A DNA stretch of 64,000 nucleotides, taken from assembly GCF_021228235.1 (NCBI RefSeq), contig NZ_JAJQRG010000003.1, positions 434,001 through 498,000 of the forward strand. Direction: 5' to 3'. The DNA comes from Pseudophaeobacter flagellatus. GTDB lineage: Bacteria > Pseudomonadota > Alphaproteobacteria > Rhodobacterales > Rhodobacteraceae. Positions 3,419 to 16,344 of the stretch are shown here, one piece after another (the first letter of the stretch is position 1; every line of letters begins with the position of its first letter). The position numbers and the translations under genes were made by a program. The notes under the pieces were generated by a model. The model saw only the letters and a program-made list of their open reading frames with translations. It searched no databases and was not told where the DNA came from.

Positions 3419-5164
3419 ATGAAAACCCAACCGTCAAAACCCCTGATGGAAAAGATCTTTCCGGTTCTGAGCTGGGGGCGGACATACAGTCGACAGGATC
3501 TTGGCGGCGATCTGACAGCGGCGGTGATCGTGACCATCATGCTGATCCCGCAATCGCTGGCCTATGCCTTGCTTGCGGGGTTGCCCGCCGAGGTTGGGTT
3601 ATATGCTTCGATATTGCCGCTGGTGGCCTATGCGCTTTGGGGGACATCGCGGGTACTGGCGGTGGGGCCGGTTGCGGTGGTGTCCCTGATGTCGGCCTCG
3701 GCGCTGGCGCCGCTTGGCCTGACGCAGGTCGCGGACTATGTGGCAGCCTCGGCGGTGCTGGCCTTGATGTCGGGGGCATTGCTATTGCTGATGGGCGGGC
3801 TGAAGCTTGGCTTTATCGCCAACCTGCTGTCGCATCCGGTGATCGCAGGCTTTATCAGCGCCTCTGGTATTCTGATTGCGATCAGTCAGGCCAAGCATAT
3901 TCTTGGTATTCCTGCCAGCGGTCACAACCTGCCGGAAATCCTGCTGTCATTGGGGCAGGGGATTGGGCAGATCAATCCCGTTACCGCCGTGTTGGGATTG
4001 GCGGTTCTGGGGTTTTTGTTCTGGTTGCGGCGCGGGGTTCCGGCGCTGCTGCAGAACCAGTTTGGCCTGTCACAGCAGCTTTCGGGCACCATCGTGCGTA
4101 TTGGGCCGGTCTTTGCTGTGGTGGGCACAATCTTGCTGTCCTGGGGGCTGGGCCTTGCGGATCAGGGCGTTGCAGTTGTCGGTCAGGTGCCAACCGGCTT
4201 GCCGCCCATTGGCGTGCCAGCCATGGATGCCGAACTGGTTAAGGCGCTGATTACACCAGCTATTTTGATCACCATTATTGGCTATGTTGAAAGCGTGTCG
4301 GTGGCGCAGACCCTGGCGGCCAAGCGTCGCCAGCGGATCGACCCAAATCAAGAACTCAACGCGCTGGGGGCTGCGAATATTGCCTCGGGCCTGTCGGGGG
4401 GCTATGCGGTGACCGGGGGATTTGCCCGCTCGGTGGTAAACTTTGATGCCGGGGCGCGCACGCCGGCGGCGGGTGCCTTGACAGCAGTTGGATTGACTTT
4501 TGCCGCTATCTACCTGACGCCATTTATGTATTTTCTGCCAAAGGCCACGCTTTCTGCAACAATTATCGTGGCAGTTCTGTCGCTGGTGGATTTGTCGATC
4601 CTGAACACCGCCTGGCGCTATTCGCGCGCCGATTTTGCAGCTGTCTTTGCCACCATACTGCTGACGCTACTGGCTGGGGTGGAAATTGGCGTCGGTGCCG
4701 GGGTGATCACCTCGATCTGCCTGTTTTTGTGGAAAACATCCCGGCCACATGTGGCCGAGGTCGGACAGGTGCCGGGCAGTGAACATTTTCGCAATATTGA
4801 ACGTCACAGCGTTGTCACGGATCCTAAAATCGTCACGCTCCGGATTGATGAAAGCCTGTACTTTGCCAATGCGCGGCGGATGGAAGACCTGATCCTGGAT
4901 CGGGTTCATCGCGGTGATGGCGCGGTCAAACATCTGGTCCTGATGTGTTCAGCGGTGAATGAAATCGATCTCAGCGCGCTGGAGTCGCTAGAGGCGATCA
5001 ACCATCAGCTGGCGGATATGGGGGTGAGCTTGCACCTGTCAGAGGTCAAGGGGCCGGTGATGGACCGGTTGCAGCGCAGTCACTTTCTGCAGGACCTGAC
5101 CGGAGAAGTGTTCTTGTCGCAAAACTGCGCGTATCAGAAGTTGCGCGAGACGTTGCAAGACTAG
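3419..5164 (+). CDS. SulP-family inorganic anion transporter with STAS domain
   Basis: A SulP/SLC26 inner-membrane transporter of 581 residues. The N-terminal half-thousand residues are strongly hydrophobic (about 10-14 membrane segments) and begin with the family hallmark around LIPQSLAYALLAGLPAEVGLY. A second signature, ESVSVAQTLA then GGYAVTGGFARSVVN, is also present. The last 120 residues form a cytoplasmic STAS domain with the NEIDLSALESL phosphorylation-loop region. Family members carry sulfate, bicarbonate, dicarboxylates or other anions; the substrate cannot be told here. I choose the ATG at 3419, preceded by AAGAAAGA, over the in-frame ATG at 3359, because family proteins start just before the first membrane helix. 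Confidence 0.87.
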   Translation: MKTQPSKPLMEKIFPVLSWGRTYSRQDLGGDLTAAVIVTIMLIPQSLAYALLAGLPAEVGLYASILPLVAYALWGTSRVLAVGPVAVVSLMSASALAPLGLTQVADYVAASAVLALMSGALLLLMGGLKLGFIANLLSHPVIAGFISASGILIAISQAKHILGIPASGHNLPEILLSLGQGIGQINPVTAVLGLAVLGFLFWLRRGVPALLQNQFGLSQQLSGTIVRIGPVFAVVGTILLSWGLGLADQGVAVVGQVPTGLPPIGVPAMDAELVKALITPAILITIIGYVESVSVAQTLAAKRRQRIDPNQELNALGAANIASGLSGGYAVTGGFARSVVNFDAGARTPAAGALTAVGLTFAAIYLTPFMYFLPKATLSATIIVAVLSLVDLSILNTAWRYSRADFAAVFATILLTLLAGVEIGVGAGVITSICLFLWKTSRPHVAEVGQVPGSEHFRNIERHSVVTDPKIVTLRIDESLYFANARRMEDLILDRVHRGDGAVKHLVLMCSAVNEIDLSALESLEAINHQLADMGVSLHLSEVKGPVMDRLQRSHFLQDLTGEVFLSQNCAYQKLRETLQD

Positions 5165-5216: not shown

Positions 5217-5982
5217 GTCGTTGCGACGGTTTCCGCTATCTCAGTTTCAACATCTCTTCTCTGAACGCCTCGGTCGGGGTTCTCCAACCGAGACACTTTC
5301 TGGGCGTTCCGTTCAGGCGGTCGCAAATCGCCTTCATATTGCGATTTGAGAGCGCCGCGAGCTGGGTGTCTCGGGGCAGATATCGGCGTGCGCGCTTGTT
5401 CAGGTTCTCGATGGATCCCTTTTGCCACGGTGCTTGCGGATCACAGAACCACGCCTCCGTTCCGATCCCAGGTTTGAGCCTGCGCCAGTTCCTAAACTCA
5501 ATCCCGCGATCAAAGGTGATCGATTTACGGGCTGGCTGGGGCAGGGGTTCCATCACGCCCATCAACCGATTCATCAGGTGCGTTGTGCTGCGGTCGTTGT
5601 TGCGGAACAGAACGGCAAAGCGGGTTTTTCGCTCGACCAGTGAGGCGACATTCATCTTGCCCTGAGCGCGCTCAAAGATCATCAGATCACCCTCCCATTC
5701 GCCAAACGTCTCGCGGGTATCAACGTAGTCAGGCCGTTCATGGATGGACCGATCTGGCGGGAACACCAGGCCGCGGGGCCTGCGCGAATGATGTGGCCGT
5801 TGCGTTTGATGTCTCGGTAGATCGTCGAGACATGCCTGCCGATCTCCGCCGCGATCTCTCGCACAGGGATCGCGGCATTCAACATATCCTCAATCGCACG
5901 CCGTTCACGCAGGTTTAGCTCTCTATGCGCCATCTTTCATTCTCCTTGCTTTCCAGCAAGATAGGGGAAATTTCGCAACCCA
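5217..5982 (-). mobile_element. IS30-family insertion sequence, internally deleted
   Basis: The ends carry matching imperfect inverted repeats. Read inward, the left end has GTTGCGACGGTTTCCGCTATC (from about 5220) and the right end, read on the other strand, has GTTGCGAAATTTCCCCTATC (from about 5979). These agree at most positions with one gap. Between them lies a broken transposase. At under 0.8 kb the copy is shorter than a typical IS30 element of about 1.05-1.1 kb. It sits some 30 bases from the left end of the dif-integrated prophage and could only move if a complete copy supplied transposase. Confidence 0.8.
5236..5933 (-). pseudogene. IS30-family transposase, internal deletion and frame change
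   Basis: The N-terminal helix-turn-helix (MAHRELNLRERRAIEDML through HVSTIYRDIKRN) starts at 5933. After about 45 residues the frame is lost. The C-terminal half of the DDE catalytic domain resumes in another frame from about 5770 down to 5236, with FGEWEGDLM, then FDRGIEFRNW and the WQKGSIENLNKRARRYLP glutamate motif. The region usually found between these parts, roughly 130 residues by family comparison, is missing. The product is therefore not functional. The C-terminal part retains the three acidic catalytic motifs, so the deletion looks fairly recent. Confidence 0.88.
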
Positions 5983-6010: not shown

Positions 6011-6038
6011 AAAACTCATAATCAGTAGTATGGTCTGG
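6011..6038 (+). other. Left attachment junction: degenerate dif-like site
   Basis: XerC-like arm AAAACTCATAA (6011-6021), central hexamer TCAGTA (6022-6027) and a poor XerD-like arm GTATGGTCTGG (6028-6038). The central hexamer and flanking ATAA and TATGG are identical to the dif site at 14592-14619. This is the pattern expected when a dif-exploiting element inserts: one good dif and one hybrid site. Interpretation is by comparison with the known dif consensus. Confidence 0.75.
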
Positions 6039-6073
6039 GGATATTAAGTTGCTGATAATAAAGGTGAAAATGA

Positions 6074-6145
6074 CCGAGAGGCGTTGCCCTACCTTTGCAG
6101 CAATTTACCACAACCGATACAAGGCTCAGAGGGCAACCCTCTCGG
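6074..6145 (+). repeat. Long inverted repeat near the left attachment site
   Basis: CCGAGAGGCGTTGCCCT (6074-6090) pairs with AGGGCAACCCTCTCGG (6130-6145): 16 base pairs with one bulged base and a 39-base loop. It lies 36 bases inside the left attachment site. It could be a replication structure, an accessory recombination site or a structured leader RNA. A 28-codon frame (6070-6156, ATG preceded by AAAGGTG) runs through the same bases, but I do not claim it as a gene. Confidence 0.7.
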
Positions 6146-6214
6146 CTTGTGTGTAAGCTATAGGTTAAGCGTTCTTATTTCAAGGTAAGGTTTGCCGGAC
6201 TTAAAGGCTCAACT

Positions 6215-6406
6215 ATGCGCGGCAAAAAAATCACCGAAAATGAGAGAATTGCTATTCTCGTCCTCCTGTCCAAAGGCCATTCGCGCCGTTTCATTGCGAA
6301 AGCTTTGAATCGCTCCTTGGCTGGCATTCAGGGCCAGATTGACGCCATGCGCGCCCAAGGCCTGATTGAATGCGAGGGGCAGGGGGCGGGCAATGACAAG
6401 CAATAA
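6215..6406 (+). CDS. Small helix-turn-helix protein (prophage early region)
   Basis: A 63-residue basic protein. Residues 6-45 look like a single helix-turn-helix: ITENERIAILVLLSKGHS, then RRFIAKALNRSLAGIQGQI, with the spacing of homeodomain-like or sigma-region-4-like folds. It begins 189 bases inside the left attachment site and its 3' end overlaps the start of the replication gene by 14 bases, so the two are probably translated together. By position it is likely an early regulator or an accessory replication factor. I do not recognise a specific family, and the role is inferred from the motif and the location only. Confidence 0.65.
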   Translation: MRGKKITENERIAILVLLSKGHSRRFIAKALNRSLAGIQGQIDAMRAQGLIECEGQGAGNDKQ

Positions 6407-7061
6407 AAAAGCCTTCGGCCCAATGTATCAGCGCGAGATGAAAGCCTATGCGGTTTCTCAAGGCGTAAAGGGATATGAGCTAAACGTCCTTGGCGCGCTG
6501 CTAGACTGCTGCAACGGCGACAGCGGGCAATCTCGGCCCGGTCGGGCGCATATAATGGAAAAGACCGGTATCCAGTCTGAGAGGACGTTAGATAAGCACT
6601 TGAAGGCCCTGCGAGACCGCCAAATGATTTTGCCCTTAGCCTACCTCTCGGGCGGGAGAGGTCGCACAACTGTTTACGGGTTTTGCCTGCCAGCGTGGAG
6701 CGGGCAGCTGCGCAAAGAAACCCCCGCAACACATGCGGGGGAAACAGACCAAGCGAAAAACCAAAACCCCCGCAAGTCTTGCACTAAACCCCCGCAAGTT
6801 ATGTCACAAACCCCCGCAAGTTATGCGGCCCCAACAGAAAGAACAGATAGAACAGAAGGGGATGAGGACACGCCTAGTCGGCGTGAAGGGGATAAAGTGC
6901 CAGAGCGCAGGCCACGCGCCAGAACGGACACCCTGACCCCTATAGGGAAGTTTGACGCGATTTCGGTCCTGTCACGCAATGGGGTCAGCGCGACCGTTAG
7001 CCAAATCACCGCAGGGATGAAAACCGCAGACCTAGCCCAACTTGGCTATGTGGTGGGATAG
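6393..7061 (+). CDS. Putative replication initiator (winged-helix N-terminus, iterons in gene)
   Basis: A protein of 222 residues. The first 105 or so form a winged-helix domain (GYELNVLGALLDCC, then RAHIMEKTGIQSERTLDKHLKALRDRQ, then a strand-wing GRGRTTVYGF) like those of phage O-type and DnaD-like replication proteins. The middle is low-complexity, polar and proline-rich, and is encoded by the iterons. The last 40 residues resume folded-looking sequence (GKFDAISVLSRNGVSATVSQI). This resembles phage lambda O, where the origin repeats also lie in the middle of the initiator gene. I take the ATG at 6393 (MTSNKKAFGPMYQ), overlapping the previous gene. No helicase or polymerase domain is present, so the element must recruit host replication enzymes. 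Confidence 0.65.
   Translation: MTSNKKAFGPMYQREMKAYAVSQGVKGYELNVLGALLDCCNGDSGQSRPGRAHIMEKTGIQSERTLDKHLKALRDRQMILPLAYLSGGRGRTTVYGFCLPAWSGQLRKETPATHAGETDQAKNQNPRKSCTKPPQVMSQTPASYAAPTERTDRTEGDEDTPSRREGDKVPERRPRARTDTLTPIGKFDAISVLSRNGVSATVSQITAGMKTADLAQLGYVVG
6718..6825 (+). repeat. Iterons inside the replication gene (probable origin)
   Basis: Four direct repeats of the form AAACCCCCGCAAGTTATG: 6718-6735 (diverged at the end), 6764-6781, 6786-6803 and 6808-6825. The last three are spaced exactly 22 bases apart and the first is 46 bases earlier. An inverted partner TGCGGGGG (6734-6741) abuts the first copy. Because 22 is not a multiple of three, the same DNA is read in three different frames (NPRK, KPPQV, TPASY). 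The conservation must therefore act on DNA rather than protein, as for initiator binding sites. Confidence 0.85.
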
Positions 7062-7103
7062 AGGCCCTTCGGGCCAGCTTAGAAATTAGGAAGGTTTGAA
7101 ATT

Positions 7104-7259
7104 TTGACGGAAACGCATTTGGTACTGATGGCGGGGGCTGTGCTGTTGCAAAGCCTGCTTGGCTGGCGCTGGTTCCTGATTGCCTTGGGTGGTGCTTGGT
7201 GGATAGCTGGGCGGGCGCGCTGGCTGGCGGTATTGCTGGGGGTTGGTGGGTTGATGTAA
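7104..7259 (+). CDS. Small membrane protein, TTG start
   Basis: An unreported-type small frame of 51 residues with two hydrophobic stretches (HLVLMAGAVLLQSLLGW and FLIALGGAWW, then WLAVLLGVGG) joined by a short basic turn (AGRARW). A clear ribosome-binding site AGGAAGG (7088-7094) lies 9 bases upstream of the TTG, which supports translation. It is the last gene of the early rightward module, 42 bases after the replication gene and 60 bases before a bidirectional terminator. Function is unknown. A membrane role in lysis, superinfection control or virion membrane composition would fit a tailless membrane phage, but nothing here decides this. Confidence 0.55.
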   Translation: MTETHLVLMAGAVLLQSLLGWRWFLIALGGAWWIAGRARWLAVLLGVGGLM

Positions 7260-7319
7260 GGCCCTCTCCCCCTTGCTGGGGACACCTCCGCTAAACCTCT
7301 GATTTTATCCACACAATGC

Positions 7320-7355
7320 GCCCTCGTGAAACGGTTGTTTTACGGGGGCTTTATT
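7320..7355. terminator. Terminator between the convergent early and packaging/lysis modules
   Basis: GCCCTCGTGAAAC (7320-7332) pairs with GTTTTACGGGGGC (7337-7349) over 13 positions with a few mismatches, then TTTATTG follows. It lies between the rightward early genes and the leftward M15 peptidase gene and may end transcripts from both sides. Confidence 0.6.
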
Positions 7356-7449
7356 GTCGCTTGAGGGGGGTAGAACGGGGGAGGAACGTTACAAAAACCC
7401 CTCCCGCACAATGACATGGGGGAGGGGGAGGCTTTCGGAGGTTGTGGAA

Positions 7450-7962
7450 TTACCGGCTGCGGATACGCCCCCAGCGATCACGGCGAGAGCGCGGCAGACT
7501 GGGGCGGCTGGCTTTGGGCTGGCGGGTCGCTTGCGCTTCTTGTGGTGGCGCTGCCGGGAATGGTTCACCCCATCGCGCCGGTTGTTCCCGCGTGTCGATA
7601 TGGAGAAAGTTTTGCTTGGGATAGGTGCCGAAACTGCTGAATCCGGCTTTTTGCGCGGCGGCCTCAAGTTGGCGAGGGTCATGGTTCCGCAAGTTGATAT
7701 CGTAGGCACGGGCGCGCAGGTGCTGGGACTGTTCCGCCCCGCCAACGCGCCTATTGTGTTCCGGCGAGCGATAGGCGCTGTTGAGATAGATCGGCTTGCC
7801 GAGGTCGTCACGCAAGGCTTGCAGGCAGTCCATGGCGTCAAAATCGACCATAAGCGCCCCGCTACCACGACAGGCCATTTCAAGCGGGGAGAAGTTCGGC
7901 CAGCGCCATTCGTCCAGGGGGAACAGGCTGTAATGATCAAATTTCTGCAGGTGTGAGTTCAT
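7450..7962 (-). CDS. M15-family zinc peptidase (probable phage endolysin)
   Basis: A protein of 170 residues with a peptidase M15 (D-Ala-D-Ala carboxypeptidase / L,D-endopeptidase) domain in residues 20-125. The visible motifs are NSAYRSPEHN, the metal ligands H81 and D88 in QHLRARAYDI, and H121 in FLHID. It has no signal peptide, so export would depend on a holin, as usual for phage endolysins. The last 40 residues are proline- and arginine-rich and may bind anionic surfaces. It is last in the leftward operon, 4 bases after the packaging ATPase stop. With the transglycosylase at 12878 it gives the element two kinds of peptidoglycan-cleaving activity. Confidence 0.82.
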   Translation of the reverse strand: MNSHLQKFDHYSLFPLDEWRWPNFSPLEMACRGSGALMVDFDAMDCLQALRDDLGKPIYLNSAYRSPEHNRRVGGAEQSQHLRARAYDINLRNHDPRQLEAAAQKAGFSSFGTYPKQNFLHIDTREQPARWGEPFPAAPPQEAQATRQPKASRPSLPRSRRDRWGRIRSR

Positions 7963-7966
7963 GGCA

Positions 7967-8545
7967 TTAGTCCTCTAAGAAGTCGCCAACGGGCGCGTTG
8001 CGGCGCGTCTGCGCCTTTTTTTGACCGATCAGGGAGGCGGCCAGCGAAATATCGTTTGAGCCACTGAGGCGGCCCCAGAAAGTCTTTGCGGATTGTTCGC
8101 GATAGTTCGGATGAACGCCGCTTGGGCGCTGGGTCAAAAGCATGATGCCCATCCCCGCATGGCGGCCCATATTGAAAATCCGCATCATCATTTCATTTTG
8201 CGAGCGAAGGTAGGTCGCGGCCTCGTCACAAACGACGTAAAGCGGACGTTCCTTTGAGCTTAGACCAAACGCGATATGTAGCGTCTTAATGGCAATCTCG
8301 GGATCGGGTGCGCCAACTTGGATCAGCCGCGTTCCGCCCTCAATATCGGCCCGCAGGCTGGCATATGTGGTTGCAGCCGGTAACGTCGGGTCGATCCAAA
8401 TCACCTGCGGGGGTTTCTGTTCAACGATCAGGCCCTTGGCTTTGGTCGTCTTCCCAGATCCGCGCCCGCCATAAACGGCAGTCACTTCTTCAAAAAACGG
8501 CTTTGTTGGGACGTCTGCGGGGAACTCATAAGCTGGTTTGATCAT
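7967..8545 (-). CDS. A32/FtsK-HerA-type genome packaging ATPase
   Basis: An ATPase of 192 residues, about the size of PM2 and PRD1 packaging ATPases. Walker A is GGRGSGKTT (residues 26-34), Walker B is PLYVVCDEA (101-109, with D107 E108), and a sensor-like segment MLLTQRPSGVHP follows near residue 135. Genes of this kind pump DNA into tailless icosahedral capsids and are the most reliable companion of double-jelly-roll capsid genes. The start at 8545 is fixed by an ATGA overlap with the stop of the upstream gene. A FtsK-like fragment or a conjugation ATPase is much less likely given the small size, the absence of a membrane segment and the phage neighbours. Confidence 0.8.
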   Translation of the reverse strand: MIKPAYEFPADVPTKPFFEEVTAVYGGRGSGKTTKAKGLIVEQKPPQVIWIDPTLPAATTYASLRADIEGGTRLIQVGAPDPEIAIKTLHIAFGLSSKERPLYVVCDEAATYLRSQNEMMMRIFNMGRHAGMGIMLLTQRPSGVHPNYREQSAKTFWGRLSGSNDISLAASLIGQKKAQTRRNAPVGDFLED

Positions 8546-9006
8546 GCTTCTGCCCTCTGGGTGTTGAATTCGGTTTGCTGGGCAGGCGGGGCGGATTGTG
8601 CCTCGCGGACCATCTGCAAGCACATATAGCCATGCATTCCAACGGCCATGATTTTGCCGATGGTGCCTTTGGCTTTATCCAGCATCCAAGGGGCGTATTG
8701 TTCGGCCAGTTCGTAACAAGCCGCACAAGCCTCGTCGCCAATTTCATTTGATGCAGCTTCTGCCAGTTCGACGCGCGCGTTGATGCGCTTGGAAATGAGC
8801 GCTCCCCCCATGTGGTGCGCCATTTTCCACATCGCGCCAAACTCAGTTGGCGTCATGAGGTCGCGGGGCGGGTCCGTCACCTCTGAAAGTTCTTGGGGAG
8901 CTGCATCGGTGGGCCGTTCTGCAATCGGCGCGGGAAGGTTTGCGACCTGTGACGGCGGGGTGTTCAGCGTGGCGGCTTCCAGCGCTTCCAAGGCGACATC
9001 ATACAT
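8542..9006 (-). CDS. Unknown prophage protein between regulator and packaging ATPase
   Basis: A protein of 154 residues that I do not recognise. The first 50 residues are proline-rich and probably disordered. Residues 52-135 are predicted helical (TPTEFGAMWKMAHHMGG, then RVELAEAASNEIGDEACAAC, then GKIMAVGMHGYMCLQM) with a weakly hydrophobic stretch that could be one membrane-associated helix. Translation is coupled on both sides: its ATG overlaps the preceding gene's stop (TAATG) and its stop overlaps the ATPase start (ATGA). Placement beside the packaging ATPase suggests a packaging-vertex or assembly factor, but that is inference from position only. Confidence 0.55.
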   Translation of the reverse strand: MYDVALEALEAATLNTPPSQVANLPAPIAERPTDAAPQELSEVTDPPRDLMTPTEFGAMWKMAHHMGGALISKRINARVELAEAASNEIGDEACAACYELAEQYAPWMLDKAKGTIGKIMAVGMHGYMCLQMVREAQSAPPAQQTEFNTQRAEA

Positions 9007-9368
9007 TAGAATTTTCCATATACTTCTTCAAAGGCGTTTAGCTCCTCGGACGGCAAGGGAGGGGTGGGGCGCTCCTTTGCGGTTTCGGCAGGGGTGGGCA
9101 GCGGGCGGGCTGTAGTGGGCATCTGTGCGGCCTCTTTGGCGCTCTGGTGTGGTTTAAGGCGAGATATCGCGTTGCATTCGCGGTCGTACTGTTCCCAATC
9201 AACGGATTGACCAAAAAAGCGATCAACTGATTGGCGGCGATGCAGGGGGCACCGGGTCGCCCCTCGTGACCACCGATTGAAGTGGGCGCGTGATACTTGA
9301 ATTATTGTTTCCACGGTCTTCAGGCGCGGCCCATTCACGAAATACGCTTGTTCAAAGGATGGTAACAT
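9006..9368 (-). CDS. Putative DNA-binding regulator heading the leftward prophage operon
   Basis: A protein of 120 residues. Residues 10-45 could form a helix-turn-helix (RLKTVETIIQVSRAHFNRW, then SRGATRCPLHRRQSVDRFF); the rest is proline-rich and ends in an acidic tail. The start at 9368 is chosen because AAGGAAAA stands 7 bases upstream; an earlier in-frame start at 9419 has no such site. It faces the palindrome cluster at 9411-9463 and is divergent from the virion operon, the expected position of a switch protein acting on both promoters. The DNA-binding fold is a weak call from sequence alone. Confidence 0.5.
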   Translation of the reverse strand: MLPSFEQAYFVNGPRLKTVETIIQVSRAHFNRWSRGATRCPLHRRQSVDRFFGQSVDWEQYDRECNAISRLKPHQSAKEAAQMPTTARPLPTPAETAKERPTPPLPSEELNAFEEVYGKF

Positions 9369-9410
9369 TTTGCTTTTCCTTACATTAGACGCGGGTGAAA
9401 TGTAGCAAAA

Positions 9411-9463
9411 TACGCGCATATGCTCAATATTTATGAGCGCATATGCGCGCTAATATGCGCATA
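9411..9463. promoter_or_regulatory. Divergent operator region with three GCGCATAT-type palindromes
   Basis: GCGCATATGC (9414-9423), a perfect 12-base palindrome GCGCATATGCGC (9437-9448) and a perfect 10-base palindrome TATGCGCATA (9454-9463) lie in 53 bases. A CTCA/TGAG inverted pair occurs between the first two. The sites fill the gap between the leftward regulator gene and the rightward virion operon, so they are the likely control switch of the prophage. Core promoter hexamers are not clear. Confidence 0.65.
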
Positions 9464-9561
9464 AATTCAATTACTTGGATGAGTTATTTCGTGTTTAAAG
9501 GGAGCGCGATAGGCAAAGCCGAAAAATCGGATTGCAGACCCTGAAATTTAAGGAAAATGAC

Positions 9562-9672
9562 ATGAAGGCAAACACAAAACTGTTCCTGACAATGGCACTT
9601 GGCGTTGCAGCAGGCCTCGCACTGGACAACGTGCTGCGCCGCAACCCCACATACAACGCGCTGGTGGGCTAA
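9562..9672 (+). CDS. Small membrane protein heading the virion operon
   Basis: A 36-residue frame starting at an ATG with AAGGAAAA 5-6 bases upstream, one of the best ribosome-binding sites in the element. After four polar residues it has one hydrophobic segment (LFLTMALGVAAGLAL) and a short basic tail (NVLRRNPTYNALVG). It ends 4 bases before the major capsid gene, so the capsid start, which has little of its own Shine-Dalgarno signal, may depend on translation of this frame. Tailless membrane phages such as PM2 carry several single-span virion proteins of this size. Its exact role is unknown. Confidence 0.6.
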   Translation: MKANTKLFLTMALGVAAGLALDNVLRRNPTYNALVG

Positions 9673-9676
9673 GCTC

Positions 9677-10624
9677 ATGCGTCGTATCAAAACAGCAGGT
9701 GTCGGCAAGGAGCTGGCGCAGAAGGCGCAGACCACAACGGCAATCGCCAAAGTGCGCAACGTCTTCACCACCTCGCCCGCCTACGCGGACGGCACCGCAA
9801 CCATGGACCTAAAGACTGGCGCCTATACCTATCAGGTGCTTCAGTTTTCGATCTGGTCTTCGGTTGCGATTGCCGGGGAGACGTTTCAGCGCGATGGCCG
9901 GCACATCGTTAACACCGCCAATCTGTCCAAATATATCACGCGTGTCCGCCTAGAGATTGACGGCGTGGTTGAACAAAATTTGAGCATGGCAGACTGGATC
10001 AAGTTCAACGCCAAGGATGGCTACAACGTCGCGGACGGCGTGTGGTGGATGCACTTCGGCGGGCCACATCAGTTTGACGATAAGCGGGTGGAAGACGTCT
10101 ACGCTCTGGGAACCAGCAATCTGCGCTCCGTCCGCATTCTTGTCGATCTGACTTCTGATTGGAACGATGGCAACATGCAGCTTGCGGGTATGGCCGAATA
10201 CACCTCAACACGCCGCCATGTGACCCACCTGCGCACGATTAAATCAAATCGGCATTCCCCTGCGTCGGCTGGTGAATATACCATTTCCGGCCTGCCGATC
10301 CACTCTGATATCGGCGCAATCTACGTCTTGGGCGAGGGCATCAAGAGCGCCAAATTCGTGGTTGATGACGTCGAGATTTTCGACGCTCGCAACTACCAAA
10401 TCGAAGCTTTCAACCTGCTTTACGGCGCAGACACAACCGCCCTGGGCAATGGGATCGTTTTTGACTTCATGCGGTCCAATGAGATCACCAAAGCTTTGAA
10501 GTCGCTGGAACGGAGCGACCAGCGCAAGCGCAACGCCGATATTCGCATTGTCGTGGATATGGACGCGGCCAACGAGCTGAATGTGATTGTTGATCAAGTG
10601 GGCGCTTACGCCACCCAAGGCTAA
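9677..10624 (+). CDS. Candidate double-jelly-roll major capsid protein (PM2 P2-like)
   Basis: A soluble protein of 315 residues, rich in predicted beta-strands, with no signal peptide or membrane segment. Examples of alternating hydrophobic strands are YITRVRLEIDGVVEQNL, VRILVDLTSDW, IGAIYVLGEGIKSAKFVVDD and IRIVVDMD. Length, position just behind the control region and the first-gene rank among structural genes fit the major coat protein of PM2-like phages (PM2 P2 is about 270 residues). The packaging ATPase of the matching type nearby supports this. The ATG at 9677 is preferred over an upstream in-frame start because it follows the small gene directly. The capsid call is by fold pattern and context; no structure or search was available. 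Confidence 0.68.
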   Translation: MRRIKTAGVGKELAQKAQTTTAIAKVRNVFTTSPAYADGTATMDLKTGAYTYQVLQFSIWSSVAIAGETFQRDGRHIVNTANLSKYITRVRLEIDGVVEQNLSMADWIKFNAKDGYNVADGVWWMHFGGPHQFDDKRVEDVYALGTSNLRSVRILVDLTSDWNDGNMQLAGMAEYTSTRRHVTHLRTIKSNRHSPASAGEYTISGLPIHSDIGAIYVLGEGIKSAKFVVDDVEIFDARNYQIEAFNLLYGADTTALGNGIVFDFMRSNEITKALKSLERSDQRKRNADIRIVVDMDAANELNVIVDQVGAYATQG

Positions 10625-10632
10625 ATCCCCTA

Positions 10633-10657
10633 GCCCTGCGCAGCGACTGCGCGGGGC
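10633..10657 (+). other. Stable hairpin immediately after the capsid gene
   Basis: GCCCTGCGCAG (10633-10643) and CTGCGCGGGGC (10647-10657) form an 11-base-pair stem with a 3-base loop. No T-run follows. It probably acts as a partial terminator or as a 3' stabiliser that keeps capsid mRNA in excess over downstream genes. Confidence 0.6.
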
Positions 10658-10679
10658 AAAACTGAATTCAAGGTGAGAC

Positions 10680-11009
10680 ATGGCGACAGAGGCAACCGGA
10701 GACGTCGGGCATCCTGACGACACGAACTATGCGGGTGACGGCTGGAAAAAGGTCTGGGGCTTCTTTGACGGGCTGGCCGGTGTGGCTGACCGTGTGGAAG
10801 GGGTCACTGAGGATCTTTCCGACACCTCGGATCACATTGTTGACGCCAAGCGCGGCTGGTTTGAATTGCGCCGCGACGAACGGGACGCAGAAACAGCCGA
10901 TATGCTCGCAAAATCAGCTTGGCAGCGCGGCGATAATGTCGAGTTGACGAAATACTGGGCGCTTGGGGCTGCGGCCCTTGTCGCCGTTCTTATCATCGCC
11001 GGGAAATAG
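10680..11009 (+). CDS. Single-span membrane protein of the virion operon
   Basis: A protein of 109 residues with a good ribosome-binding site (AAGGTGAG) ahead of the ATG. The N-terminal 85 residues are acidic and polar, including a heptad-like helical stretch (GVADRVEGVTEDLSDTSDH). The C-terminus is one membrane helix (YWALGAAALVAVLIIAG), so this is a tail-anchored type protein. In internal-membrane phages, proteins with this layout connect the membrane to the capsid shell. I cannot assign a named homologue. It follows the capsid gene after the hairpin at 10633. Confidence 0.6.
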   Translation: MATEATGDVGHPDDTNYAGDGWKKVWGFFDGLAGVADRVEGVTEDLSDTSDHIVDAKRGWFELRRDERDAETADMLAKSAWQRGDNVELTKYWALGAAALVAVLIIAGK

Positions 11010-11011
11010 TC

Positions 11012-11239
11012 ATGGCTGCACCCCCTCTTAGCTTAACGCTCAGCCCCTCATCGGCGGCAGACACCGGTGACAACCTTATTGATGCAGGAGATTTTACAGT
11101 GGATTTTGGCGATAAAATCACCGGAGACGGTGGCGCGGCGGCCAACTCTAACCCAATCGCAAATCTTGGCGGGCAAGTCATCCAAGGTGTTCTGGTGGCA
11201 GTGCTGGCGAAATGGGCTTTTGAGAAGGTTTTCAAATGA
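11012..11239 (+). CDS. Small membrane-anchored protein of the virion operon
   Basis: A protein of 75 residues that starts 2 bases after the previous stop. The first 45 residues are Ser/Asp/Gly-rich and acidic. The end is a hydrophobic helix with a basic cap (GGQVIQGVLVAVLAKWAFEKVFK). The layout repeats that of the gene before it: polar head, then C-terminal membrane anchor. Its stop overlaps the start of the next gene (ATGA), so expression is coupled. It is probably a virion membrane protein. No named family is recognised. Confidence 0.57.
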   Translation: MAAPPLSLTLSPSSAADTGDNLIDAGDFTVDFGDKITGDGGAAANSNPIANLGGQVIQGVLVAVLAKWAFEKVFK

Positions 11240-11643
11240 AGGCGTTGACAAATTCCCGCTTCTCAACATCGCTTGCACCACTGCCAGAGCGCTTTCATGG
11301 CCAGATTGCAGATGCTGCTGAACTTGCCCTAGCTCTTGAAGTCGGGGCCCGCCCGGATACGGCAACCATTAGCATTGAAAACCGCGACACTGGAGAACTA
11401 GCAGCCTATGCCGTGATCGGCCCCGACGATGATGGAATGGTGGTTATCTACGTGGCGCGGTCGTGGCTGACTGGCCTTGGCGCAATGGCAATTCGTGGCC
11501 TTTTTGGCGCGGCTCAATGCATCAGCAGCCCATTGCGCGTTCATGCTGACCAGATCCGCACCTATGCCCGAATTTTAGGGGCAGAGAATGCACTTTCAGC
11601 CATCGACGCTGACGGTGTTCCCATGGGTGTGTTTCATGGGTAG
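11236..11643 (+). CDS. Unknown soluble protein of the virion operon
   Basis: A protein of 135 residues with mixed alpha/beta character and no clear membrane span, apart from a mildly hydrophobic segment near the middle (WLTGLGAMAIRGLFGAAQ). I do not recognise a family. Coupled translation with both neighbours is evident: its ATG overlaps the preceding stop and its last bases overlap the following start by 8 bases. Possible roles include a minor capsid, vertex or assembly protein, but the sequence does not decide among them. Confidence 0.5.
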   Translation: MKALTNSRFSTSLAPLPERFHGQIADAAELALALEVGARPDTATISIENRDTGELAAYAVIGPDDDGMVVIYVARSWLTGLGAMAIRGLFGAAQCISSPLRVHADQIRTYARILGAENALSAIDADGVPMGVFHG

Positions 11644-12175
11644 CAAGGCCAGTTCTGCAACTTCGACCGAGACAAACAACTACGCGATGGACCTAAGCGC
11701 CACCAACGGTTCAGGAACCCAAATTCTGGATAGCATTATTGTTGATCCGTCCGATCAGGTGATGATGAAAACCATTGAAGGCCATAAAGCGGCCTTTGAG
11801 GTCATGATGACAAACAGCAGCGTCCAACTGTCTGAATTGCTTACGCTTGGCTCTGAAATCATGACCTTGGCAGACAATCAACAGATCCGGCTTGAAGGCG
11901 CAAATTATCACATGCTGGACACCGGGGTTCGGATGCTTAAGGAGCAAATGGACGCGGGGAAATACGTGATCGACTTTGTGGATATGTCCACAAATAGAAC
12001 CTTTGATTTGGCCGAGCAGTTGACCAACGACAGCAGCAGCGCCGTTGAGCAAGCGCTTGAAATCGTTGGGGATGTTAAAGCTTCAACTACTACTGACATG
12101 GTGCAGGCAATTTCGGCTTTTATGGTCATTTTTGGGCTTGGTGCCCTCTACCTCATCACAAGGAATAAACAATGA
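11636..12175 (+). CDS. Helical membrane protein of the virion operon
   Basis: A protein of 179 residues. After a polar N-terminus it is largely helical and polar (HKAAFEVMMTNSSVQLSELL; EQALEIVGDVKAS). It ends in a single membrane helix followed by a basic tail (MVQAISAFMVIFGLGALYLITRNKQ). The start at 11636 (MGSKASSATS) gives a short overlap with the upstream gene; the open frame extends further 5' without a better start. Like the small proteins before it, it looks like a membrane-anchored virion component. A long helical body could act as a scaffold, tape-measure or DNA-delivery part; that is speculation. Confidence 0.55.
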   Translation: MGSKASSATSTETNNYAMDLSATNGSGTQILDSIIVDPSDQVMMKTIEGHKAAFEVMMTNSSVQLSELLTLGSEIMTLADNQQIRLEGANYHMLDTGVRMLKEQMDAGKYVIDFVDMSTNRTFDLAEQLTNDSSSAVEQALEIVGDVKASTTTDMVQAISAFMVIFGLGALYLITRNKQ

Positions 12176-12885
12176 AAACGCCCCGCAATATGGTGCTTAC
12201 ATCGTTTGAGACAAAGCGGCTCGCGAAATCTGAAACAATTGGATACCTCGGGGGGCAGTTCCCCGGCGTTTTTGTCCGTATGAATGGAGAGGATATCTAT
12301 TTGCGGGAGGGTCAATGCGTTGCCTGTGAGGGTGAATATATTGAACTCAAAAACCCTTTTTCTCGGACTGGCAGCGCAACGATCGTACAAGACGCGCCCG
12401 TAAACTTTACGGGAAATCATAGCATTGCATCCCGCCGCTACTTTCCCACAATCCGTTCGTTGGCAGGGGTTGAAAGTGTCGACGGTTCTAGCCTTGGCCT
12501 AACTGAATTTTACCGCGCGACGCTGTTTTTCACTGAAACAGTTCCAACTTCGATTGACTTGGAAATGTCGGTGGCTTGCAAGGTTATTTCCCTTGATGAG
12601 GCGGACCTTGGGGCATTTTCAGCAAGCGAGCTGATACGCAACATCAAGCCAAGTTTTGTTGACGGGATCGAGCATTTTTCAATCGGTGGCGAACTGCGCA
12701 TTATCAGCCTGCCGGACTTTGCCGCGCTGGAAGATGCTGGCAAGCTTCTGGCTTATCAAGACCGAATGACCACCGTCACATTGGAGCCAGGGCGGCCCAT
12801 CCTTGTCGCGCGCCTCCACGGCGGGAGTCTGCAAGTCAATTTTGAAGCGTTTGACCTGCCTTACGTGAGCGCCGAAGATGTCTAG
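12172..12885 (+). CDS. Unknown beta-rich virion protein (minor capsid or vertex candidate)
   Basis: A soluble protein of 237 residues dominated by predicted strands (FVRMNGEDIYLREGQCVAC; RPILVARLHGGSLQVNFEAF), without membrane segments or signal peptide. Its ATG overlaps the previous stop (ATGA) and its end overlaps the transglycosylase start by 8 bases. Size and predicted fold would suit a penton base, spike or minor jelly-roll protein, which tailless phages need at capsid vertices. That role is inferred from context; I see no recognised domain. Confidence 0.5.
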   Translation: MKTPRNMVLTSFETKRLAKSETIGYLGGQFPGVFVRMNGEDIYLREGQCVACEGEYIELKNPFSRTGSATIVQDAPVNFTGNHSIASRRYFPTIRSLAGVESVDGSSLGLTEFYRATLFFTETVPTSIDLEMSVACKVISLDEADLGAFSASELIRNIKPSFVDGIEHFSIGGELRIISLPDFAALEDAGKLLAYQDRMTTVTLEPGRPILVARLHGGSLQVNFEAFDLPYVSAEDV

Positions 12886-13498
12886 GCTGGCCATTCTGGC
12901 GGCACTGGGCGGCGCTGGGTGGTATGCTTGGCAATCTGGGTACTTGGATCAGTATTTGCCGCCAGAATACGCCTACGGGGCTGTCATGGGGCAGGGCGGC
13001 TCTGGCCCCACCGTTCAGCCTGTGGGTTTTTCGGTTTCAACACCGGGTACGCTGGAAGAAAATTTACTGCGCGAGAATTGGACGTGGGTTTCTAGCTATG
13101 CGGCAACAGAGCCTGAATTGGCGGCCGCGATCATGTGGCAGGAAAGCCGCGGGAAGGTGCGCGCAATTAGCAGCGCCGGGGCGCGGGGTCTCATGCAGGT
13201 TATGCCGTCCACCGGCAGAGATTTGCATGACCGCTTAGGCTATGGCCGGATCCAACCGACAATGGCCAACCTCATGACTGCCGAGGGGTCAATTTATTTC
13301 GGCACTGCCTACATGGAATATCTGCACACGATCCGAAACGGGCGCTCTTGGGAGTGGTACATTCGGGCCTATAACGGTGGACCGGGTGGCGCCGATAAAT
13401 TCATGGGCGGCGGAAAAAATGCCGAAAATGATGGCTATTACAGCAAGGTTTTAAGGCGATGGAATACCCTTAGAACAAGATCAGAAACAATCACCTAG
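12878..13498 (+). CDS. Lytic transglycosylase (SLT fold), virion-associated
   Basis: A protein of 206 residues. The N-terminus has a hydrophobic stretch (LAILAALGGAGWYAW) that could anchor it in the virion membrane. The catalytic domain spans residues 65-190 and carries the SLT motifs: the catalytic glutamate E89 in AAIMWQESRG, then SSAGARGLMQVMPST, and AYNGGPG towards the end. Enzymes of this kind cut the glycan strands of peptidoglycan locally during phage entry. It lies among structural genes rather than next to the M15 endolysin, which supports an entry role. It overlaps its upstream neighbour by 8 bases. Confidence 0.85.
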   Translation: MSRLAILAALGGAGWYAWQSGYLDQYLPPEYAYGAVMGQGGSGPTVQPVGFSVSTPGTLEENLLRENWTWVSSYAATEPELAAAIMWQESRGKVRAISSAGARGLMQVMPSTGRDLHDRLGYGRIQPTMANLMTAEGSIYFGTAYMEYLHTIRNGRSWEWYIRAYNGGPGGADKFMGGGKNAENDGYYSKVLRRWNTLRTRSETIT

Positions 13499-13509
13499 GA
13501 GATAATAAA

Positions 13510-13725
13510 ATGGTACTACCATTGGCCGCAATTCCGGTTTGGGCATGGTTTGCAGGCGGGGCCGGTGTCGGTGTCGCTGTGATGGGCGCAGGCGCAGGGG
13601 CTGGGAGCTTTGTTGCGGCCCGCAACATTAGCGAAGGACTTGAAGACGGTTTGCGCATTGCAGTGCCGGTCGGTGTCGGGGCGCTGGTGGTCTATGCAGC
13701 CTATCAGATGGCGTCAAAGAAATGA
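13510..13725 (+). CDS. Small glycine-rich two-span membrane protein
   Basis: A protein of 71 residues with two hydrophobic segments (PVWAWFAGGAGVGVAVMGAG and IAVPVGVGALVVYAAYQM) separated by a short charged linker (ARNISEGLEDGLR). The start is preceded by AGGAGATAAT, a plausible ribosome-binding site. Its stop overlaps the following ATG. Glycine-rich double-span proteins of this size are common in phage virion membranes and among small holins. Function is not otherwise indicated. Confidence 0.55.
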   Translation: MVLPLAAIPVWAWFAGGAGVGVAVMGAGAGAGSFVAARNISEGLEDGLRIAVPVGVGALVVYAAYQMASKK

Positions 13726-13958
13726 GCTATTGGGAAAGCGCAAAAGAAACTCTGGGCCTTGGCTCGGACGCCCCAGAACCTGCGGCCACCGCCCGCGATG
13801 AGGGCGGCAGCTGGGTTGCGGGTATGGTGGCCGGTCAATTGCCCGGTCATGGGACGCTGTTTGATTACGACGGCGGCGGGTTTCGCTTCACCAAGCCGCT
13901 GCAAATTGGCTTGGTACTCATGGCCGGGTACGGTCTGTTTCGCATGATTGGGCGTTAA
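13722..13958 (+). CDS. Small membrane-associated protein of the virion operon
   Basis: A protein of 78 residues: a polar N-terminal half (SYWESAKETLGLGSDAPEP), a glycine-rich middle, and a C-terminal hydrophobic helix with a basic end (LQIGLVLMAGYGLFRMIGR). The layout again is polar head plus C-terminal anchor, as in the two genes after the capsid gene. It is translationally coupled to its upstream neighbour by an ATGA overlap. No family is recognised. Confidence 0.52.
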   Translation: MSYWESAKETLGLGSDAPEPAATARDEGGSWVAGMVAGQLPGHGTLFDYDGGGFRFTKPLQIGLVLMAGYGLFRMIGR

Positions 13959-13971
13959 ACCATTGGATCAT

Positions 13972-14145
13972 ATGTATTTATCAAATTGGATCATGGGCGG
14001 CGGTGCTGGCGCTGTCATTTGGTTCTTTACGCGCAGGCTGATCGCGACCTTGGACAAGGTGGCCAACAAGGTAGTTGAGCACGGCGAAGAAATTGGACGC
14101 CATGGCGTCAAAATATCCAATATGGAACGGGAGGTTTTCAGATGA
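13972..14145 (+). CDS. Small membrane protein, possible holin partner
   Basis: A protein of 57 residues from the ATG at 13972; TTG codons at 13948 or 13963 in the same frame are alternatives, and none has a strong ribosome-binding site. One hydrophobic segment near the N-terminus (IMGGGAGAVIWFFT) is followed by a charged amphipathic helix (LIATLDKVANKVVEHGEEIGRHG). Single-span proteins with a coiled-coil tail like this occur next to holins as membrane partners or spanin-like factors. Its stop overlaps the holin start by ATGA, consistent with a lysis role, though this is an inference. Confidence 0.5.
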   Translation: MYLSNWIMGGGAGAVIWFFTRRLIATLDKVANKVVEHGEEIGRHGVKISNMEREVFR

Positions 14146-14510
14146 AATGGATTGCAGAACTGCTTGGGATTGGGAGCAAAATTGTAGAAGCGCGCAGCCG
14201 CTTAAAGGTGGCGAAAATTGAGGCCCAGACTACCGCCACGCAGTCGCGGGCGCAACAAGATGGCGCATGGGAGGCCATGGCGGCTGAGAACGCTCGCAAC
14301 AGTTGGCTTGATGAATACTGGACAGCCGTTTTGACTGTGCCTCTGGTGCTGGCATTCCTTGGCGCTGGCGATGCCGTGGCAGACGGTTTTGCGGCGCTTC
14401 AGGGTGTGCCGGATTGGTACAAGTGGAGCGTTCTTGCATCGGTAAGTTTTGCCTTTGCTCGCAAGACGATGCCGGGCGTTGCTGATTGGGTTTCGCGCAA
14501 AAAGAGCTAA
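14142..14510 (+). CDS. Holin-like protein resembling the three-span GTA holin family
   Basis: A protein of 122 residues. After a basic, Gln/Ala-rich helical region (residues 15-55, LKVAKIEAQTTATQSRAQQ) come the hydrophobic segments WTAVLTVPLVLAFLGAG and WYKWSVLASVSFAFA. The NSWLDEYW motif before the first span and the overall layout recall the holin family named for gene transfer agent release in Rhodobacterales. The likely role is to permeabilise the inner membrane so the M15 endolysin can reach peptidoglycan. It is the last gene of the element, 81 bases before the right attachment site. Confidence 0.68.
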   Translation: MKWIAELLGIGSKIVEARSRLKVAKIEAQTTATQSRAQQDGAWEAMAAENARNSWLDEYWTAVLTVPLVLAFLGAGDAVADGFAALQGVPDWYKWSVLASVSFAFARKTMPGVADWVSRKKS

Positions 14511-14591
14511 GGGGCTTGACCCGTCATTTGCGAACGCGCTAAACAGGGTTCACCACAACCGTAACGAAATCGCAAACTTGTCCATATCGAA

Positions 14592-14619
14592 TAGTCGCAT
14601 AATCAGTATTATGGTAAAT
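14592..14619 (+). other. Chromosomal dif site (XerCD recombination site) and right end of the prophage
   Basis: XerC arm TAGTCGCATAA (14592-14602), central hexamer TCAGTA (14603-14608), XerD arm TTATGGTAAAT (14609-14619). The arms agree with the bacterial dif consensus (GCATAA, then TTATGTTAAAT) at nearly every conserved position. Chromosome dimers are resolved here by XerC and XerD under FtsK control, so this marks the replication terminus. The hexamer is repeated at the left prophage boundary. Confidence 0.87.
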
Positions 14620-15480: not shown

Positions 15481-16344
15481 TCAACTGGTGATGGGTCGCA
15501 TCAGGCCTTCCTGGGCAACACTGGCCACCAATTTTCCATCCCGAGTGTAGATAGAGCCGCGGTTAAAGCCGCGGCCGCCACCGGCAAATGGCGAATCCAT
15601 GGTATAGAGATGCCATTCATCGAACTGCACCGGCGCGTGAAACCACATGGCGTGATCCAGACTGGCCGTCATGGCTTCGGGTTTATGCCAGGTCAGCCCA
15701 TGCGGCCGCAGCGCTGATCCCAGTAAACCAAAATCGGACGCATAGGCCATCAGCACATGTTGCAACTGCGGCCCTGCCCCTTTGGCGGCCTCCATTCTGA
15801 TCCACATATGGTTGATATCACTGCTAATACCAGGATTAAGCGGATCTCGGGGTTCGATGTCGCGAATTTCAAACGGCCGCTGGCGGATAAAGTCGGCGCG
15901 GTTTTCTTTGTCAATGCGATGGGCATTTTTCTGGTGCAATTCATCCCGCGACAACAGCCCCTCCGGTGGCGGGATATCTGGCATTTCATGCTGATGTGCC
16001 CAGCCCTCTTCGACGCGATGGAAAGAGGCCGCGAGGTTAAGAATCTGACGACCATTCTGAATGGCCGTCACGCGGCGTGTGGTAAAACTGCCGCCATCCC
16101 TGGAGGGATCCACGTCATAGATCACCGGCTTGCTGGGGTCGCCCGGACGGATGAAATAGCCGTGCAGTGAATGGCACAGCCGTTCTGGCACGCTCGCATA
16201 GGCCGCTGCCAGGGCCTGGGCGATAACCTGTCCGCCATAGATCCGCATTGGGGTTTCGCCACCAGATCCAATGCCCCGATAGAGATTTGTATCCAGCTCT
16301 TCCAGATCAAGCAGGTTGAGAAGAACAGTCCCGGCATCAGTCAT
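15481..16344 (-). CDS. tesB: Acyl-CoA thioesterase II
   Basis: A protein of 287 residues with the double hotdog architecture of TesB. Typical features are the N-terminal LLDLEELDTNLYRG segment, GGQVIAQALAAA, and the SLHGYFIRPGDPSKPVIYDVD strand pair; the C-terminal half carries the second hotdog with LDHAMWFHAP. It hydrolyses acyl-CoAs to free acids and CoA in the cytoplasm. The open frame extends to 16506, but MTDAGTVLLNLLDLE at 16344 is the family start. It is the last gene of the leftward acyl-CoA cluster and may recover CoA from dead-end intermediates. Confidence 0.88.
   Translation of the reverse strand: MTDAGTVLLNLLDLEELDTNLYRGIGSGGETPMRIYGGQVIAQALAAAYASVPERLCHSLHGYFIRPGDPSKPVIYDVDPSRDGGSFTTRRVTAIQNGRQILNLAASFHRVEEGWAHQHEMPDIPPPEGLLSRDELHQKNAHRIDKENRADFIRQRPFEIRDIEPRDPLNPGISSDINHMWIRMEAAKGAGPQLQHVLMAYASDFGLLGSALRPHGLTWHKPEAMTASLDHAMWFHAPVQFDEWHLYTMDSPFAGGGRGFNRGSIYTRDGKLVASVAQEGLMRPITS

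Follow-up and report, generated by a model that had tools for sequence, protein, structure and literature searches.

A Jorvik-like prophage at the terminus dif of Pseudophaeobacter flagellatus and its probable integration by host XerCD

The genome assembly of Pseudophaeobacter flagellatus (GCF_021228235.1, 4.29 Mb) carries a complete-looking, 8.6-kb prophage in a 64,000-nucleotide stretch of contig NZ_JAJQRG010000003.1 (C22; positions 434,001 to 498,000), hereafter the window, whose coordinates are used throughout. The element occupies positions 6011-14619 (C22:440011-448619) and is bracketed by two dif-like sites that have the centre TCAGTA in common. An original prediction, made from the letters of the window and its open reading frames (ORFs), had proposed a tailless phage lacking an integrase and inserted at dif by the host's recombinases. 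We find it very probable that the element is a prophage integrated at the terminus dif by host XerCD, with an attachment-site (att) layout like that of TLCphi and a regenerated dif on its right. The site coordinates of that prediction proved exact: positions 14592-14619 read TAGTCGCATAA-TCAGTA-TTATGGTAAAT and positions 6011-6038 read AAAACTCATAA-TCAGTA-GTATGGTCTGG. The anatomy of the element, its phage family, the identity of the site as a true dif, the pattern of the att arms and the polarity of its FtsK-orienting polar sequences (KOPS) are all read from the sequence.

The whole assembly was scanned with a dif core pattern, allowing up to two mismatches (a control pattern had 0 matches), and the right site was the sole perfect match; one other place, on contig C3, had two mismatches. 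This second dif-like site (G000:C3:136450-136473, L002) lies on a 174-kb contig and is perhaps the dimer-resolution site of another replicon. By score the left site is unremarkable, its 19/28 match to the right site being level with that of an unrelated spot at 4645; the 11-mer CATAATCAGTA is found in the window at the left and right sites and nowhere else. A half-matching left site and a strong right dif had been proposed, and both were confirmed, with the decisive support coming from comparison with congeners (12 genomes of the genus, including the window's own, one of the 11 others having 86% completeness). The major capsid protein (MCP) gene was found in the window's own genome only and in none of the 11 congeners, all of which have a dif-like 28-mer before the same short-chain dehydrogenase/reductase (SDR) gene and a conserved TTCCGTTCCGTCAC leader. 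The element's left neighbour, sulP, was upstream of the site in seven of the 11 congener stretches fetched, its match ending 50-143 bases ahead of the site in five of those seven; in G002 and G010 the contig starts 41 and 130 bases ahead of the site. The expectation that relatives without the element would have a single dif with centre TCAGTA at this place was therefore borne out for the site (11/11) but not for the centre, which was TCAGTA in one congener (G006) and differed in the other ten. In all, seven hexamers occur at the dif centre in the 12 genomes: TTGGTA, TCTGTA, TCGGTA, TATGTA, TCTGGA, TCAATA and TCAGTA.

The polarity of the chromosome changes at this site. In 4-kb bins of the window, GC skew was positive in 4/4 up to position 16000 and negative in 8/12 thereafter, and KOPS (GGGNAGGG; forward:reverse) numbered 4:0 in the left flank of the element and 1:13 in the right. 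Fifteen further stretches of C22, outside or touching the window, gave 48:9 for the fourteen on the left, the last of which overlaps the window, and 1:3 for the one on the right; one of the 15 stands outside the left and right sums. In congener G001, assembled as a 4.2-Mb contig, KOPS numbered 29:2 in ten stretches left of the site and 4:31 in eight stretches right of it, the remaining two of the 20, past the other skew change, giving 3:1 and being excluded from the sums; of two 20-kb stretches flanking the site there, the one before it (ending at a distance of ~0.6 kb) had positive GC skew and the one after it (starting at ~0.4 kb) negative. Since KOPS polarity flips and GC skew changes sign at this place, the integration site is the terminus dif of the chromosome and not a look-alike, and the original placement of the element at dif stands.

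Relatives of the element were sought with its MCP, which matched 4 of 394 genomes of the family, 7 of 390 in a draw from the order (3 weak) and 8 of 385 in a draw from the class (7 weak), each count including the window's own genome. The packaging ATPase, used as a second query, led to four loci: two new ones (L101 and L102) and two on the already known contigs of G268 and G341. Six integrated elements have both ends: those of the window, G268, G045, G341, L101 and L102. G501, with one end on its contig, was excluded from the att pairs and KOPS counts, and the weaker order-level matches (G533, G518 and G437) and the seven weak class-level matches stand outside the att analysis. The record of L102 (CP059262.1) is titled Exiguobacterium profundum (metagenome-assembled genome) and has a Rhodobacteraceae-form dif together with a Jorvik-like prophage; its organism label looks wrong. 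KOPS flip at the prophage in the lysogens G268 (18:1 left, 1:20 right) and G045 (31:8 left, 2:29 right), and the sole testable side of G341, the right, agrees (5:21). The short flanks of L101 (3:0 and 0:1) and L102 (7:0 and 0:0) are consistent with the flip; GC skew by itself is noisy in G268 and G045. As an alternative, the dif-like sites could be palindromes serving the SDR gene as promoter or operator, with the element having arrived by some other route. The conserved TTCCGTTCCGTCAC stretch, a few bases after the site and before the SDR gene in relatives, speaks for this, but KOPS and GC skew change at the site, the prophages of G268, G045 and G341 end at dif-like sites each beside different ORFs, and the dif of Rhodobacter sphaeroides chromosome 1, according to the cited part of the source, has the same form (PMC2731167). 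On the first two of these grounds an operator in place of a dif was rejected, and we regard it as extremely improbable.

Comparison with the 11 empty sites indicates which arm belongs to which partner. The XerD arm of the right site matches them at a mean of 8.6/11, against 5.3/11 for that of the left site, and the right XerD arm is for this reason assigned, by its sequence, to the host. For the XerC arm the means are 7.5/11 (left) and 6.7/11 (right), which weakly suggests that the left XerC arm is the host's. The implied attP would thus have a good XerC arm, the centre TCAGTA and a degenerate XerD arm, and the attP of the phage Jorvik, GAGTCCGATAA-TCAGTA-TTTAGGGGGAG, has the same form. As had been predicted, the right junction keeps a full dif, judged by its form and its host-like XerD arm. 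Left and right centres are identical in five of the six integrated elements (TCAGTA, TAGGTA, TCAATA, TCAGTA and TCAATA, i.e., three hexamers), although the pair search required an ATAA motif and equal centres and so favoured matching pairs, L101 being paired by position afterwards. In the same five, the left XerD arm is poor (4-5/11 to the consensus) and the right XerD arm is of the TTATG type (7-10/11). A dif-like XerC arm and centre with a degenerate XerD arm is the layout of TLCphi, in which, according to the cited part of a review, XerD exchanges strands first without FtsK and XerC second, reversibly (PMC4246890); the Jorvik-like elements have this layout, L101 and the phage YY being weaker cases.

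No recombinase of the element's own was found, in agreement with the claim that the 8.6-kb phage region lacks an integrase. A search of the genome for PF00589 gave 16 tyrosine recombinase matches, none of them within C22:440011-448619, and no clear recombinase family was found among the ORFs of the element (17 compared with PHROGs, 8 with Pfam). The small helix-turn-helix (HTH) protein beside the left site, termed Gp1-like, has 63 aa, too few for a catalytic domain. The two best tyrosine recombinases of the genome are XerD-like (306.6 bits) and XerC-like (314 bits) by NCBIfam, and an FtsK-gamma domain is present in two host proteins. The second FtsK-gamma protein (G000:C22:378845-379024, L191) has an open frame of only 303 aa and lies ~70 kb from dif. 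Integration at a host dif and the lack of a recombinase, two of the marks of integrative mobile elements exploiting Xer (IMEX), are both found here.

As regards the mechanism, we infer catalysis by XerCD, the order of strand exchange, excision and the function of the regenerated dif. In the circular form of the phage DNA, attP would consist of a good XerC arm and a degenerate XerD arm around a centre that matches that of the host dif. After crossover, the left junction would combine the XerC arm of the host with the poor XerD arm of the phage, and the right junction the XerC arm of the phage with the XerD arm of the host, i.e., a complete dif; because the crossover joins these last two arms, the host would retain one good dif for chromosome dimer resolution. 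Since the left site is without a proper XerD arm, excision by the usual FtsK-driven, XerD-first reaction would be expected to be inefficient, and both integration and excision probably follow the TLCphi route instead, with XerD acting first without FtsK and then XerC. A small HTH gene lies beside attP in all eight Jorvik-like genomes (the six integrated elements, Jorvik and YY), its family matches being generic, and the Gp1-like protein is a candidate lysogeny switch or Xer activator, the latter role being a guess.

The phage genome also appears suited to the terminus in that its KOPS are aimed at the regenerated dif. When the eight genomes were oriented from attP through the HTH gene, GGGNAGGG occurred 49 times forward and 3 times reverse, the window's element contributing 3 and 0. 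Markov nulls of order 1-4 (200 runs each, per genome) gave means of 9-14 forward and 2-3 reverse, and the motif ranked first of 56 rearrangements of the same composition; a by-product of strand composition was rejected on this evidence. Codon or ribosome-site bias was rejected as well, since in blocks of reverse genes KOPS still ran 18 forward to 1 reverse, i.e., opposing gene direction (the window contributes 0 of the 18), so that gene direction fails to explain the bias. By strand excess, the octamer GGGCAGGG ranked third among 33,503, and all eight genomes contain it. As controls, two tailed phages of Roseobacter, 50 kb each, had KOPS at 2:2 each, and GGGNAGGG was absent from the PM2 and NO16 records. 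That prophages can have polarised KOPS is not in itself a new finding, since the cited part of one paper mentions that KOPS are abundant in those of Salmonella and E. coli (PMC5993296); for the Jorvik-like family, no report of it was found among the literature matches listed.

Several observations weigh against a TLCphi-like integration by host XerCD. The empty sites are those of congeners, none of the same species, and the element is known from an assembly only. The XerD-like and XerC-like proteins fall below the curated cut-offs of NCBIfam (306.6 of 329.6 and 314 of 335 bits), and the Gp1-like protein weakly matches the HTH part of the transposase family phrog_4646 (E 0.0015). The difference by which the left XerC arm is given to the host is small (7.5 vs. 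6.7 of 11). In L101 the centres are unequal (TTGATA/TAGATA) and the left XerD arm scores 7/11, as does the XerD arm of YY, so that the rule of a degenerate arm is imperfect. GGGCAGGG is only modestly in excess (35 occurrences vs. 27.5 by maximal-order expectation), and KOPS density is near that of dif-adjacent DNA (4 in the 6-kb left flank vs. 3 in the 8.6-kb element); because the densities are comparable, the case from KOPS is one of polarity and of enrichment relative to the composition of the phages themselves, and not relative to host DNA close to dif.

Some of these points bear on the route. An exchange by XerC only, resolved by replication as in VGJphi, would fit what all six integrated elements have in common, namely the XerC arm together with the bases on the XerC side of the centre, and it would allow the unequal centres of L101. 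However, in VGJphi, as described in the cited part of the review, homology is missing from the XerD side of the centre (PMC4246890), whereas here the full hexamer matches in five of six elements and it is the XerD arm that is degenerate, as in TLCphi. Considering this att layout, we lean slightly toward a TLCphi-like route and judge the VGJphi type unlikely. Others bear on mobility, as the prophage could be a defective one, frozen at dif, whose junctions are relics of a past Xer event and which is no longer mobile. Its being known from an assembly, its left flank scarred by an insertion sequence (IS) fragment of IS30 type and its presence in 0 of 11 congeners searched are all compatible with this; the listed ORFs, however, are open and syntenic with those of the infectious Jorvik, and the identical att centres suggest little decay. 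We therefore give a defective prophage rather little credence, and a prophage integrated by host XerCD remains the reading that we prefer.

The element is, by its sequence, a new and presumably membrane-containing member of the Mestraviridae, the family in which ICTV, in the cited part of its text, now places Jorvik and YY (as Anticleavirus jorvik and Polymedevirus YY), nine signature genes being common to the order (PMC12451628). Its MCP matched just three records of a phage collection by tblastn, Jorvik (35%, E 3e-46) and YY (32%, E 7e-39, two records), and its packaging ATPase matched the same three. Because MCP identity is only 35% and 32%, it probably represents a genus separate from both. 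By BLAST, 16 of 19 ORFs have a counterpart in Jorvik and/or YY, with E ~1e-6 or better and conserved order, these E-values referring to sets of ~20 proteins with composition correction off and the ORF at the P7 position (1/19) being taken in the wrong frame. The Gp1-like protein had no significant BLAST match to Jorvik gp1, though its position is equal. Family models match the MCP, packaging ATPase, M15 peptidase and SLT domain, which argues that the phage genes are real. The genes form three blocks (Table 1), the HTH and replication genes (forward), the M15, ATPase, assembly factor and repressor genes (reverse) and the capsid operon (forward), and the layout of the Mestraviridae is recognizable in the reverse block with the P9 ATPase and M15 peptidase, the forward structural genes and the terminal SLT and holin genes. 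A double-jelly-roll tailless phage had been proposed, and the predicted fold of the MCP agrees: its best match in PDB was P2 of PM2 (E 2.1e-18, TM 0.68/0.79), using the best of five models (mean pLDDT 72.7, others 58-65) from a five-sequence alignment. Searching a collection of viral contigs with the MCP alignment gave no relative; the ATPase gave a single weak, partial match that was not used.

Table 1. Features of the prophage, in window coordinates.
Feature	Position	Strand	Basis or remark
attL	6011..6038	+	host-type XerC arm AAAACTCATAA (weakly assigned), centre TCAGTA, degenerate phage XerD arm GTATGGTCTGG; arms compared with 11 empty sites
Gp1-like small HTH protein adjoining att	6215..6406	+	PF13936 HTH_38; 36% to YY gp20
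KOPS GGGNAGGG aimed at regenerated dif	6377..6384	+	
Replication initiation protein, Jorvik gp2-like	6396..7061	+	phrog_270; 32.5% to Jorvik, E 3e-24
KOPS GGGNAGGG aimed at regenerated dif	7419..7426	+	
M15 peptidase, Jorvik gp3-like	7450..7962	-	PF08291; 56%
Packaging ATPase P9, Jorvik gp5-like	7967..8545	-	family model and BLAST comparison
Putative virion membrane assembly factor, gp6-like	8542..9006	-	BLAST comparison
Putative repressor, Jorvik gp7/YY gp13-like	9006..9371	-	BLAST comparison; start codon uncertain
Short membrane protein at P7 place	9562..9672	+	position only, judged by eye
MCP P2, double jelly roll	9677..10624	+	PF25513 above cut-off; fold match
Membrane protein P3-like	10680..11009	+	YY gp10, 42%
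Membrane protein P8-like	11012..11239	+	YY gp9, 45%
Putative N-acetyltransferase, gp12-like	11236..11643	+	BLAST comparison
Structural protein P10-like	11588..12175	+	BLAST comparison; true start probably 11636
Spike protein P1-like	12172..12885	+	BLAST comparison
SLT transglycosylase, gp15-like	12878..13498	+	PF01464 and BLAST comparison
KOPS GGGNAGGG aimed at regenerated dif	12989..12996	+	
Three short hydrophobic ORFs at place of gp16-19 region	13510..14145	+	
Putative holin, YY gp1-like	14142..14510	+	phrog_2524 (function unknown) and BLAST, 53%
attR, regenerated full dif	14592..14619	+	phage XerC arm TAGTCGCATAA, centre TCAGTA, host XerD arm TTATGGTAAAT

Between sulP and the left junction lies a frame-broken transposase remnant (5236-5933, minus strand; up to ~6005), putatively of IS30 type, with an rve domain match (E 2.4e-6) below the Pfam cut-off; no inverted repeats were found around it. 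In three of the 11 congeners (G003, G007 and G010) and in G341, the XerC arm is preceded, at a distance of exactly 5 bp, by a sequence with the end CTACA; in the window the distance is 6 bp. Elements of the IS1202 family target dif, as the cited part of one paper describes, with a spacing like that of the CTACA-ended sequence seen here (PMC10132070).

If the reading holds, the published description of dif-like sites at variable places for Jorvik-like phages can be replaced by a sharper and testable rule, i.e., that the place is the dif at which KOPS flip, for which the window's host, G268 and G045 provide the long flanks and G341 the right side only. The genes next to att would differ from host to host since the surroundings of dif themselves differ. 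From the att layout one would expect a stable lysogen in which dimers can still be resolved at dif, and which the phage enters and leaves by an XerD-first reaction independent of FtsK. To our knowledge, entry and exit of this kind are otherwise restricted to filamentous phages and their satellites. A phage genome located at dif itself and carrying polarised KOPS also makes a small system in which to study how FtsK reads foreign DNA close to the terminus. Variation of the dif centre among the congeners (G001-G011) may have host escape from dif-using elements as one possible reason. As a tentative and rather doubtful extension, Jorvik-like phages could be specialised on the terminus and parasites of the FtsK-XerCD system as a whole, with an attP that leaves one good dif and one FtsK-inert site, an FtsK-independent XerD activator of their own (candidate Gp1), KOPS nearly all directed toward the regenerated dif, and turnover of dif centres that is partly host escape.

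Among known systems, filamentous phages of the CTXphi type likewise use host XerCD at dif and have no integrase; however, CTXphi integrates folded single-stranded DNA, irreversibly (PMC4246890), whereas the element is a double-stranded DNA phage with one attP. None of the Xer-using elements treated in the cited part of that review depends on FtsK (PMC4246890). Tailless Vibrio prophages at dif sites regularly encode integrases, according to the cited part of one study (PMC11630473), and the element does not. The Vibrio phage NO16 (Asemoviridae) is a double-jelly-roll, tailless, temperate phage for which its authors, in the cited part of their paper, proposed XerCD use at dif-like sites (PMC9966536); it differs in family, in a record without GGGNAGGG and in its best dif-like place, with XerC 10/11 and XerD 7/11. 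TLCphi, a satellite phage of Vibrio, has the same attP layout and regenerates dif on integration; it encodes the XerD activator XafT, as stated in the cited part of one paper (PMC9765430), whereas in the element the Gp1-like HTH gene is a candidate for such a factor.

The likeness to Jorvik and YY extends to gene order, size (8.6 vs. 8.8 kb), homology of MCP and ATPase, lack of an integrase and an attP adjoining an HTH gene, and with Jorvik the element shares the att centre TCAGTA. In the cited part of their paper, the authors of Jorvik reported no predicted integrase, attP and attB resembling dif and a motif conserved in Jorvik-like phages, and considered XerCD likely; they found Jorvik in the RuBisCO operon and called the location of attB variable (PMC10589892), whereas the site of the element is the dif at which KOPS flip. 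A phosphoglucomutase signature, sought in order to find the RuBisCO-operon attB of R. capsulatus, was present in 0 of 50 TCAGTA-dif loci (30 + 20) taken from 120 matching genomes. The attB is at rcc01836/rcc01837, of which we take rcc01836 to lie near the middle of the R. capsulatus chromosome. A Jorvik variant with a change in Gp1 and a duplication located between attP and gp1 formed no stable lysogen, which the cited part of the paper reads as an effect on lysis-lysogeny (PMC10589892). Neither a TLCphi-type attP nor polarised KOPS was found stated for this family in the cited parts of these sources; the arm asymmetry may be in supplementary figure S3A. For Jorvik-like phages (PMC10589892) and for NO16 (PMC9966536), the XerCD route of the original prediction had been proposed in earlier publications; what the present element makes much clearer is the exact site and its sequence logic.

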